DNA from: an uncultured SAR86 cluster bacterium
GTDB taxonomy: Bacteria > Pseudomonadota > Gammaproteobacteria > Magnimaribacterales > TMED112
DNA: 47,992 nucleotides
Reading direction: 5' to 3'
Assembly: GCA_902619265.1 (NCBI GenBank)
Contig: CACNDL010000007.1
Span: forward strand, 1 to 47,992
The notes below the pieces were generated by a model. That model searched no databases. It was not told the DNA's origin and saw only the letters and a program-made list of their open reading frames with translations. Shown here piece by piece: positions 40,137 to 45,608 of this stretch. Position 1 is the stretch's first letter, and the number at the start of each line of letters is the position of its first letter. The translations under genes and the position numbers were made by a program.

Positions 40137-40589
40137 TTGAAATTCTTTCTCTTATTTCTCACTTTCCTAGGCATTGATTTATCCCTAAAGTGGTACCTCA
40201 ATAATGCAAATATTGAGTCAATAACATTGATACCCTATTTTTTAGATTATTTCCTAACAAAAAATACTGGCATTGCTTTAAGTTTGTTTAGTTCTTCCGG
40301 AAATATAACTCAAATTGTGTTGCTGGTTTTTATTTTCTTAGCTCTTATATTCTTAACCTATACATTTTTAAAAACACGAGATCAAGTTCAAAAGGTAGGT
40401 CTGCTTTTAGTTTTATCAGGCGGCTTTGGTAATTTTATTGAAAGACTTCTTTACGGGGCTGTAACCGATTATTTGCATCTGAGAATAGGAACTACATCAT
40501 TATTTGTTTTTAATTTTGCTGACTTTTTAATTACATTGGGAGCTGTTTTGATAATATTTATTTGGATAAGGGAAGAAAAAAATGTCTAA
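40137..40589 (+). CDS. lspA: Prolipoprotein signal peptidase with Glu in place of a catalytic Asp
   Basis: LspA cleaves lipoprotein signal peptides in the inner membrane. The 150-residue protein has four membrane helices, FLTKNTGIALSLF at 39-51, GGFGNFIERLLYGAVTDYL at 95-113 and FNFADFLITLG at 125-135. The second catalytic aspartate is Asp129 (FNFAD). The first, in the normally invariant GNxxDR, is replaced by Glu102 (GNFIER, codon GAA at 40440). Position between ileS and ispH confirms identity. The start is TTG right after the ileS TAA. It may be active with altered geometry; BamB and BamC depend on such an enzyme. Confidence 0.94.
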   Translation: MKFFLLFLTFLGIDLSLKWYLNNANIESITLIPYFLDYFLTKNTGIALSLFSSSGNITQIVLLVFIFLALIFLTYTFLKTRDQVQKVGLLLVLSGGFGNFIERLLYGAVTDYLHLRIGTTSLFVFNFADFLITLGAVLIIFIWIREEKNV

Positions 40590-41520
40590 AGAAATAGTTT
40601 TAGCAAATCCTAGAGGATTTTGTGCTGGCGTAGATAGAGCGATTGATATCGTTGAAAAATCATTGAAAAAATTCGATCAGCCAGTTTTTGTAAGACATCA
40701 AGTTGTTCATAATAAAAAAGTTGTAGAAGATTTAGAAAAAAAAGGCGTCAAATTCGTTAAAGAAATAGAAGAAATTCCAGATGATGCTGTTGCAATTTTT
40801 AGCGCTCATGGGGTTAGCAAAGCAGTCGAGGATGAAGCTAGACAGAGAAAGTTTATGTATTTTGATGCTACTTGTCCTCTGGTTACTAAAGTGCATTTGG
40901 AAGTTCAAAGACATGCTAGAAAAGGCAGAGATATCGTACTAATTGGTCATAAAGGACATCCTGAAGTTATTGGCACTTTAGGAAGACATCCCGAAGATTC
41001 TGACACTAATATTTATTTAGTTGAAAACCACGATGATATCAATAAATTAGAAATAAATTCAGAAGAATTAGCGTATGTTACACAGACAACATTATCTGTT
41101 GACGACACTCAAGATCTTATAAGGGCACTTCAAGAAAAGTTTCCAACTATTATCGGACCAAGTGCAGATGATATTTGTTATGCAACACAAAATCGACAAG
41201 ATGCTGTAAAGCAACTATCACTTGAGTGTGAGATTGTCCTAGTCATAGGGTCAAAAACAAGCTCTAACTCAAATAGATTGAAAGAATTGGCTGAAAAATG
41301 CGGTACTAAATCTTTTTTGATTGATGGAAAATCAGACATCGATGTCGAATTAATAAGTAACGCTTCTTCAGTAGGCATAACTGCTGGAGCATCTGCGCCA
41401 GAAGAAATAGTTCAAGATGTTATTTCTTTTCTCTATCCGTTGGGCTATCAGTCAGTAAGAAACCTTTCTGAAAATAATGAGACTATGACTTTTAAGCTAC
41501 CAAAAGAGTTATTAGATTAA
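40582..41520 (+). CDS. ispH: 4-hydroxy-3-methylbut-2-enyl diphosphate reductase
   Basis: IspH (LytB) makes IPP and DMAPP from HMBPP, the last MEP-pathway step. The 312-residue protein has the cluster cysteines in PRGFCAGVDRA (Cys12), DATCPLVTKVH and DDICYATQNRQ, plus GHKGHPEVIGT. Length is close to E. coli (316). It overlaps lspA by 8 bases; fkpB, which lies between lspA and ispH in E. coli, is absent. It completes the pathway with ispG located 25 kb upstream. Confidence 0.98.
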   Translation: MSKEIVLANPRGFCAGVDRAIDIVEKSLKKFDQPVFVRHQVVHNKKVVEDLEKKGVKFVKEIEEIPDDAVAIFSAHGVSKAVEDEARQRKFMYFDATCPLVTKVHLEVQRHARKGRDIVLIGHKGHPEVIGTLGRHPEDSDTNIYLVENHDDINKLEINSEELAYVTQTTLSVDDTQDLIRALQEKFPTIIGPSADDICYATQNRQDAVKQLSLECEIVLVIGSKTSSNSNRLKELAEKCGTKSFLIDGKSDIDVELISNASSVGITAGASAPEEIVQDVISFLYPLGYQSVRNLSENNETMTFKLPKELLD

Positions 41521-41556: not shown

Positions 41557-42081
41557 ATGAGCTTATCGATTAAAAATCACCTAATAGAGAGAGCAGATTA
41601 TTTTAAATCTCCAAATCAGTCAGATAGATCTGAAAATATAGACCTTATAGTGATTCATTGTATAAGTTTGCCAGAAGGTTCTTTTGATAATGACAACCCT
41701 AAGAAATTATTCTTAAACCAATTAGATTTAGATAAACATGACTCTTTTAAATCATTGAAGGGCTTAAAAGTTTCAGCTCATATACTTATAGAACGAAATG
41801 GGTCATTAATTCAATTTGTACCTTTTAATAAATGCGCATGGCATGCAGGCGAATCAAATTATGCTGGACGGGATAGTTGTAACGAATTCTCAATAGGTAT
41901 AGAACTTAAAGGCTCAATAAAGCAAGAATTTACAAGTAAGCAGTATTCAGTATTAAATGATTTGCTTTATACACTTAAAGAAGAGTATGGAGAAATGAAT
42001 ATTGTTGGACATAGCGAAATTGCACCAAATCGTAAAAATGACCCTGGGCCTTTTTTTAATTGGGACATGATCAATGTTTGA
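41557..42081 (+). CDS. ampD: N-acetyl-anhydromuramoyl-L-alanine amidase AmpD
   Basis: AmpD is the cytoplasmic zinc amidase that cuts the peptide from anhydro-muropeptides during cell-wall recycling. The 174-residue amidase_2 protein has the first zinc His in IDLIVIHCIS, the conserved SAHILIERNG and WHAGES segments, and the last ligands His and Asp in VGHSEIAPNRKNDPGP. No signal peptide, as expected for AmpD. It overlaps the ampG-like gene by 8 bases, which fits joint function: AmpG imports the substrate of AmpD. Confidence 0.95.
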   Translation: MSLSIKNHLIERADYFKSPNQSDRSENIDLIVIHCISLPEGSFDNDNPKKLFLNQLDLDKHDSFKSLKGLKVSAHILIERNGSLIQFVPFNKCAWHAGESNYAGRDSCNEFSIGIELKGSIKQEFTSKQYSVLNDLLYTLKEEYGEMNIVGHSEIAPNRKNDPGPFFNWDMINV

Positions 42082-43630
42082 GAAATTAAAAAATACACAA
42101 TTTAACTTTATCTTTTTGGGCATTTCTGCAGCTATGCCTAGTTTTGCTTTAGGCATACCTTTTGGTTTATGGCTTCTGTCTGCAGGTGTTACTAAACAAA
42201 CATTAGGATTGGTTACAGTTTCATCAATTATTGTTGCATTAAATTTTTTATGGTCGCCTTTTATAAACAGAATAAAGTTACCAGCTCTTTATAATTTTCT
42301 AGGCCTTAGAAGGTCATGGATACTTATTTCACAAATCTCATTAGGAGCTTTACTTCTACTCTTATCAATTCTTGATCCAAATCAAAATTTAACAACTGTA
42401 GTATTAGTAGCATGTCTGATTTATTTTTTCTCTTCCGTTCAAGATATTGCACTTGACGCATACAGAGTTGAATACGACCAATACTTTAAAGCTGAAAATC
42501 TAGCAACTATCTATCAAATTGGATATAAAATTGGTGCATTCCTGATAGGCGCGCAAGTATATGGAATAATCGGAGCGGAAAATTGGCAAGCAATTTACCT
42601 TTATCTTGGGTTGTTAATGTTCTTCCTTACTTTAATAACTTTGCTGAGCATGAGAGTAAAAGAAGCAAACCTTTCAGAATCCTCATTTAATCAATTTTTT
42701 TCAGCCTTCAAAAATCTCTTAAAAAAAGACAATGTAATAATCTTATTATTGCTCGTAGGAATTTATAAAATATCTGACATTGTCCTAGGCCCTATGGCAG
42801 CTGCATTATATACAGAAGTTGGTCTAAATAAAGCTGATTATCTGCAACAAAAAAGCTACTTTAACTTCTTAGCTACATTTGTAGGTTCTGGTTTGGCTTT
42901 GTGGACGATTAAGAAATTTAAAATTGAATTGACTATGTTTGTGGGAGCTCTTTTTGTGGTGAGCACAAATATGCTTTTTTCTTACTTATACCTATTTCCG
43001 AGCTATTTTAATTTCATAGGTATTAATTTTTTAGACACCATAGCTCAAGCATTTACAGCAGTATGTTTCATTACATACTTGGTAAGTCAAGTTGATAGAC
43101 GCTATACAGCAATTCAATATGCCTTTTTAGCTTCCTTAGTAATCATTCCCGGAACGTTGTTAAAGGGAACCTCAGGATTTCTAACAGATAGTCTTGGTTT
43201 CTATAATTTCTTTCTTTTAATGGGACTAATTGGGGCGCCTTCAATATGTTTATCATACCTTCTTATAAAAGAATTCAAATTCGATATGCAAAATAACCTA
43301 AGAATAGCGGGGATTGCCCTAATAATGATAATTTTCACATTTTCCTTATTTGATATTCCTCAATCAAATTTTGATGGATTGAGTGATAAATTCATGCATT
43401 TTTCTGCTTATTTATTATTATCTTTGCTGATATTTAGAGCTAGTTTAACTTTTACAAAAGCTTTACTCTTTATAGGGCTTATTTTATTAGGCGTGCTTAT
43501 TGAAGCATTGCAATACACTTCAGGTTTGAGGAATTTTGAGTATATGGATATAATAGCCAACTCCTTAGGTATTTTAGTAGGTTTTTTAATTCTCAGAATT
43601 AGAGAGAAAGCCTTGAAAATTATAGACTAA
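42074..43630 (+). CDS. ampG: AmpG-like muropeptide permease fused to a VanZ-like domain
   Basis: Residues 1 to ~400 are an MFS permease of the AmpG type (start FLGISAAMPSFALGIPFGLWL, then SSVQDIALDAYRVE at 120-133 and a KGTSGFLTDSLGFYNFF segment), importing anhydro-muropeptides. Residues ~408-510 add four hydrophobic helices with VanZ-like signatures: SDKFMHFSAYLLLSLL (437-452), GVLIEALQ (473-480) and DIIANSLGILVG (492-503). VanZ proteins are known from teicoplanin resistance. The fusion is in one uninterrupted frame. Linkage to ampD supports a recycling role; the purpose of the tail is unknown. Confidence 0.88.
   Translation: MFEKLKNTQFNFIFLGISAAMPSFALGIPFGLWLLSAGVTKQTLGLVTVSSIIVALNFLWSPFINRIKLPALYNFLGLRRSWILISQISLGALLLLLSILDPNQNLTTVVLVACLIYFFSSVQDIALDAYRVEYDQYFKAENLATIYQIGYKIGAFLIGAQVYGIIGAENWQAIYLYLGLLMFFLTLITLLSMRVKEANLSESSFNQFFSAFKNLLKKDNVIILLLLVGIYKISDIVLGPMAAALYTEVGLNKADYLQQKSYFNFLATFVGSGLALWTIKKFKIELTMFVGALFVVSTNMLFSYLYLFPSYFNFIGINFLDTIAQAFTAVCFITYLVSQVDRRYTAIQYAFLASLVIIPGTLLKGTSGFLTDSLGFYNFFLLMGLIGAPSICLSYLLIKEFKFDMQNNLRIAGIALIMIIFTFSLFDIPQSNFDGLSDKFMHFSAYLLLSLLIFRASLTFTKALLFIGLILLGVLIEALQYTSGLRNFEYMDIIANSLGILVGFLILRIREKALKIID

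Positions 43631-43668: not shown

Positions 43669-45608
<1,940 letters not shown>

Follow-up and report, generated by a model that had tools for sequence, protein, structure and literature searches.

An AmpG-type permease fused to a VanZ domain, and the pairing of ampG with vanZ across SAR86

AmpG is an MFS permease that takes anhydro-muropeptides from the periplasmic side of the membrane. Many AmpG proteins have 14 helices, E. coli and Pseudomonas AmpG among them with extra helices (PMC3022710, PMC6287161); the C-terminus of the 14-helix P. aeruginosa protein is cytoplasmic, as are both ends of E. coli AmpG (PMC3022710). VanZ proteins occur widely; some thirty years after the family was discovered in vancomycin-resistant enterococci, the reaction that they carry out is still obscure. 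They have been placed in the Lipocone superfamily, whose ancestral active site comprises a His in helix 2, a Glu in helix 3, and an Asp in helix 4, accompanied by a helix-4 glycine and by a polar position close to where helix 3 ends; they are predicted to act in the outer leaflet on the head groups of flipped lipid II (PMC12419801). VanZ modules joined to other domains have been described, including VanZ-RDD and VanZ-kinase fusions (PMC12419801). The gene described here is likewise a VanZ module with a second domain, which unlike those partners is a solute transporter with a known cargo.

The window (the whole stretch of DNA analyzed, 47,992 nucleotides from an uncultured SAR86 cluster bacterium) contains this gene at 42074-43630 on the plus strand, as one stop-free frame for 518 residues with about 16 membrane helices (12 MFS and 4 VanZ) (Table 1). 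A sequence-only reading had already described an uninterrupted frame for an AmpG-like permease with VanZ-type motifs in its tail and an overlapping ampD; the frame and the motifs are present, and ampD ends at 42081, an overlap of 8 bases. The same reading had the VanZ part begin at about residue 400; the VanZ tail is there, and its fold starts slightly later, at about residue 405 (43286). The fusion recurs in 18 genes from 17 genomes, down to 40% identity, and is therefore not an assembly or sequencing error.

Table 1. Features of the fused gene and its neighborhood (positions of the window)
Feature	Position	Strand	Basis
ispH, upstream	40582..41520	+	Named from sequence; homologue at the corresponding position of f1 and f3 loci
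ampD, cytoplasmic anhydro-muropeptide amidase	41557..42081	+	PRK11789 AmpD equivalog, 222 bits (cut-off 143)
ampG-vanZ fusion gene, 518 aa	42074..43630	+	Single open frame; fused in all 18 uncut family homologues
AmpG-type MFS permease part, residues 1-398, 12 helices	42074..43267	+	TIGR00901, E 3e-78; PDB AmpG matches; QDxxxDA and SG motifs
Short cytoplasmic linker, residues 399-404	43268..43285	+	Gap between model helices 388-398 and 405-425
VanZ (Lipocone) domain, residues 405-513, four helices	43286..43612	+	PF04892, 32.2 bits (tail alone); model pLDDT 89
D438-K439-x-x-H442 motif, start of helix 2	43385..43399	+	D and H invariant in 46 sequences
E477-x-x-Q480 motif, end of helix 3	43502..43513	+	E invariant in 46 sequences
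R486-x-F-E489-x-x-D492-x-x-A-N496-x-x-G499 motif, helix 3-4 loop and helix 4	43529..43570	+	R486, D492, and G499 invariant in 46 sequences
groES, downstream	43669..43956	+	Named from sequence and position
groEL, downstream	43965..45608	+	Homologue at the corresponding position of almost every SAR86 locus

The best profile match across the whole MFS part is TIGR00901 (AmpG; residues 10-395, E 3e-78), at 263 bits against a curated NCBIfam cut-off of 350, which sister SAR86 genes at the same locus exceed. The whole-protein model (pLDDT 88, pTM 0.85) shows an MFS fold followed by four more helices; its first five PDB matches are the AmpG structures 8zgz, 9c3f, 9j9z, 8zke, and 8zbb, and the best PDB sequence matches are the same five. 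The QDxxxDA and SG motifs are common to the fused protein and E. coli AmpG. In its MFS fold (residues 1-398), its signature motifs, and its genomic partner ampD, the protein thus resembles described AmpG permeases (TIGR00901; E. coli 8zgz, 9c3f), from which it differs in the lower profile score and in the VanZ domain that replaces the usual AmpG tail. Profile, motifs, and model together indicate an AmpG-type muropeptide permease, predicted to transport GlcNAc-anhMurNAc-peptides. The AmpG part is more divergent throughout the fused family, with about 264-299 TIGR00901 bits compared to 350-450 in most sister-family genes.

The tail was searched with VanZ profiles and modeled separately, as the sequence-only reading had proposed, and the profile match, whose failure would have refuted that reading, bears out its VanZ assignment. 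Within the whole protein, PF04892 (VanZ) matches residues 435-509 with an E value of 9e-6 and 26.7 bits, below the gathering cut-off of 30.1; the tail alone scores 32.2 bits (E 2e-7), above that cut-off, and also passes NCBIfam vanZ_1 (23.7 bits; cut-off 20). All 31 separate SAR86 VanZ homologues match PF04892 at E values up to 0.01, and the fused tail aligns with their profile over 111 residues with 99% probability (E 4e-18). The model of the tail alone (pLDDT 89) consists of four confident helices (405-425, 435-456, 462-483, and 490-516); there is no solved VanZ structure with which to compare it to the Lipocone cone fold. A Foldseek search of the tail against the PDB gave a best E value of 1.4, and the corresponding sequence search gave only noise. 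VIA-align returned 9n9j_N (Z 9.3) and mixed helical bundles, which were set aside as below the level that is meaningful for helical bundles.

Six residues (D438, H442, E477, R486, D492, and G499) are invariant in an alignment of 46 fused and separate SAR86 sequences. Four of them, H442, E477, D492, and G499, fit the Lipocone pattern of H in helix 2, E in helix 3, and D and G in helix 4 (PMC12419801), suggesting that the predicted active site of the domain is intact. With the VanZ family (PF04892; VanZ-2 and VanZ-1 of the Lipocone classification, PMC12419801) the tail shares four helices, these active-site positions, K-x-x-H in helix 2, and E-x-x-Q in helix 3. Compared with the VanZ-2 marks (RKxxH in helix 2, DxxxD in helix 4), SAR86 VanZ has D, not R, before K-x-x-H and, in helix 4, DxxxN when fused and DxxxD or DxxxN when separate; the VanZ-1 marks (DxDDxxxN in helix 4, Asn in helix 2) are absent, helix 4 reading E-x-x-D-x-x-x-N and helix 2 DKxxH. 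SAR86 VanZ also differs from the family at large in its partner, a muropeptide importer with which it is either fused or coupled. Outside the conserved residues the tail changes fast, with 40-82% identity in relatives whose AmpG parts are 64-93% identical. The dN/dS ratio in pairs of relatives was 0.20-0.34 for the tail and 0.04-0.12 for the AmpG part (2-9 times higher in the tail); the tail is therefore under purifying selection, and it is constrained less than AmpG.

Since AmpG ends are cytoplasmic and the tail is modeled as four helices, the conserved VanZ residues would lie at periplasmic helix ends. When helices are placed in order from the AmpG C-terminus, all of the invariant residues except G499 are at helix ends predicted to be periplasmic. 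Loop charges summed over 15 proteins (positive/negative) were 6/29 for periplasmic loop 1, 30/2 for the cytoplasmic loop, and 48/8 for the C-terminus, in agreement with the positive-inside rule. Helix order and AmpG topology thus place the predicted VanZ active site on the periplasmic leaflet.

We surveyed ampG and vanZ in the SAR86 family of the window (f1) and in three sister families of the same order (f2, f3, and f4). All 18 uncut ampG genes of f1 (17 genomes; genes cut by a contig end were left out) are fused and encode 513-536 aa, and the nearest named records to the fusion, at 83-90% identity, are from SAR86 cluster and marine Gammaproteobacteria genomes. In f2, f3, and f4, ampG encodes about 420 aa and is followed directly by a separate vanZ (106-120 aa) on the same strand, the two genes overlapping by 1-23 bases or abutting. 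Across genomes with a listed AmpG, 128 of the 134 VanZ matches lie within 182 bases of AmpG on the same strand, six fused f1 genes included, and a SAR86-specific profile recovered five more ampG-adjacent vanZ genes missed by Pfam. Genomes with an adjacent vanZ hardly ever carry another. The survey thus answers the call in the sequence-only reading for a census of fusions and stand-alone vanZ genes next to ampG and ampD: the fusion is old and kept in f1, and vanZ is a regular partner of ampG/ampD throughout SAR86. The gene order ispH-ampD-ampG-vanZ-groES-groEL is identical in f1 and f3, which makes an origin of the fusion in place most likely. The idea that a relic start codon marks the joint was rejected, as relatives do not keep it.

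At least eight SAR86 genomes (G036, G054, G105, and G117 in f2; G095, G098, G110, and G129 in f4) have ampG without vanZ at the same place. At these loci, ampG is followed by groES or, alternatively in f2, by a gene for an fxsA-like membrane protein (named by sequence) and then groES. VanZ is therefore accessory, and AmpG works, or at least persists, without it. In one genome (G043, one contig; L153, C1:394680-395795), ampG is shortened to 384 aa with no vanZ behind it, perhaps through decay of the pair, and in another (G142) vanZ adjoins a frame-shifted ampG. Weak VanZ hits in three genomes were dropped. One, an extra hit in a genome of the same genus (G010), adjoins or lies within a gene of the TMEM164-like acyltransferase family (TIGR02206); a second in that genus (G012) was discarded with it on similar length and score; and the third (G046) contains six stops, has no ampG fragment nearby, and is most likely spurious.

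The wider sample comprised 143 genomes from the class (almost every one from a different family) and 160 from the phylum. AmpG and VanZ were linked in 0 of the 103 distinct genomes outside SAR86 that have both, the closest pair being 9.9 kb apart (G248; listed coordinates compared by eye). Together with the SAR86 lineages that have ampG without vanZ, this leaves the general role of VanZ in muropeptide handling that had been suggested from the fusion unsupported. Among the non-SAR86 VanZ genes fetched, the three most similar to the fused tail adjoin Glycos_transf_4 (L128), BacA/UppP (L133), and lolA (L132). The Glycos_transf_4 and BacA/UppP families act on undecaprenyl lipids. In the BacA/UppP case (L133:573-1770, a non-SAR86 gammaproteobacterium), the vanZ frame shares bases with the end of bacA/uppP and is thereby paired directly with an undecaprenyl diphosphate phosphatase.

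As our preferred but tentative reading, we propose that the fusion is a muropeptide importer carrying a membrane-embedded enzyme for lipid head groups. Working in the outer leaflet, VanZ would cleave or exchange the phosphate-linked head groups on undecaprenyl-linked units of the cell wall, a step that would free lipid carrier during wall turnover, and right there the attached AmpG would import soluble products of this turnover. The fusion would then fix at 1:1 a pairing that SAR86 elsewhere makes by overlapping genes. We infer the VanZ reaction from homology to TelC and PTDSS and from gene context, including the undecaprenyl-lipid enzymes beside two of the three tail-like VanZ genes in other Gammaproteobacteria. 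That VanZ acts on lipid-linked glycan, as had been suggested earlier, is plausible in view of the conserved fusion, the SAR86-wide pairing, and the intact predicted periplasmic active site. Against the head-group enzyme stand the presence in the conserved block of ispH and groESL, which have no known tie to recycling, the vanZ-less SAR86 genomes that keep ampG, and the missing linkage outside SAR86. A TelC-type reaction would also yield a disaccharide-peptide diphosphate, whereas the known import of AmpG is of the 1,6-anhydro form. A more specific scheme, in which VanZ would free or convert undecaprenyl-linked glycan of the outer leaflet, AmpG would import the sugar-peptide, and the carrier would be reused, amounts to a lipid-bound branch of peptidoglycan recycling and seems to us improbable.

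The strongest counter-argument to the head-group reading is conservation of the whole block with unrelated neighbors: ispH and groESL make synteny weak evidence for shared function, and there is a substantial minority chance that the fusion is a by-product of gene overlap. VanZ could have a lipid head-group job of its own, unrelated to the cargo of AmpG, and a small indel at the overlapping stop and start could have joined the frames harmlessly. We regard this as a real possibility, if a somewhat doubtful one. SAR86 genomes are streamlined and hardly change their gene order, and ispH, ampD, groES, and groEL are kept together without evident functional ties. Where ORFs overlap by 4-20 bases, a small indel can easily fuse them, and the joined ends of both proteins are cytoplasmic, so that fusion would do no harm. 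The persistence of ampG after vanZ loss, the unlinked genes of the 103 outside genomes, and the higher dN/dS of the tail point the same way. On the other side, three families preserve the overlap of ampG with vanZ, there is hardly ever a second vanZ elsewhere in the genome, and every uncut f1 gene retains the fusion.

It is unlikely that the VanZ helices are a non-catalytic partner that stabilizes, assembles, or regulates AmpG and whose catalysis no longer matters. The extra helices of E. coli and Pseudomonas AmpG (PMC3022710, PMC6287161), which may act in this way in 14-helix MFS transporters, and the divergent AmpG part of f1 are compatible with such a role, but the invariant residues are the polar ones of the active site, and sister genomes contain unfused AmpG of about 420 aa without VanZ. 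Defense against lipoglycopeptide-like antimicrobials is less probable still: enterococcal VanZ lowers teicoplanin binding in Gram-positive cells (PMC7146870), and 8 of the 46 sequences give weak vanZ-A profile matches, yet the enterococcal protein of the vanA cluster shares only the broad family with SAR86 vanZ, which lies in a conserved chromosomal housekeeping block, not an island, with no van genes beside it. SAR86 is moreover Gram-negative, with an outer membrane that excludes large drugs of the glycopeptide type. Finally, that the tail is simply helices 13-14 of an ordinary AmpG, which the 14 helices of many AmpG proteins (PMC6287161, PMC3022710) might suggest and which the sequence-only reading had named as one of two findings that would overturn it, is refuted: the last 99 residues of E. 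coli AmpG have no Pfam VanZ match, profile comparison of this E. coli tail with the SAR86 VanZ alignment gave a probability of 0.2% (E 0.37), the control E. coli genome has no VanZ match at all, and sister AmpG proteins stop at about 420 aa with VanZ in its own ORF.

Other recycling genes were also inspected. The imported disaccharide is normally split by NagZ. A GH3 gene of NagZ size (about 340 aa) was found in none of the sampled f1 genomes, nor in f2 or much of f4; the sole GH3 match of the f1 genome G000 (C2:19836-20789, L145) is a secreted-looking, BglX-like protein of 805 aa. The possibility that vanZ tracks NagZ loss was rejected, as vanZ is present in families with and without NagZ. 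Family f1 thus keeps AmpG, AmpD, AnmK, and an Mpl-like ligase without a NagZ-sized enzyme. Its Mpl-like ligase (L146:302-1588; G000 C1:57856-58524) aligns well with no more than the first half of the Mpl model and reaches 302 bits against a cut-off of 388.7, a value exceeded by sister-family Mpl proteins, which match over most of the model. The AnmK of the window's genome (L147:857-1822) has 322 aa compared to about 370, and its gene directly follows one for an M23 endopeptidase (ShyC/MepM-like), another case of a recycling enzyme paired with a wall hydrolase.

In the literature searched, no earlier report of an AmpG-VanZ link was found; the main text of the Lipocone study, whose supplement may still list an AmpG neighborhood, contains none of the words AmpG, MFS, muropeptide, and permease (PMC12419801). 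The parts are known, and the combination of AmpG with VanZ and the order-wide pairing in SAR86 appear to be new. Fusion to a transporter of known cargo and topology predicts the side of the membrane on which the VanZ active site lies, narrows the range of substrates, and makes the question of VanZ function testable with one protein. If the lipid-bound recycling branch were true, a VanZ protein would for the first time be placed in the context of a native substrate. The pairing in SAR86 ties the long-unexplained VanZ proteins to genes of cell-wall recycling, and it would add a possible lipid-carrier step to this recycling in bacteria that rank among the most abundant at the marine surface.
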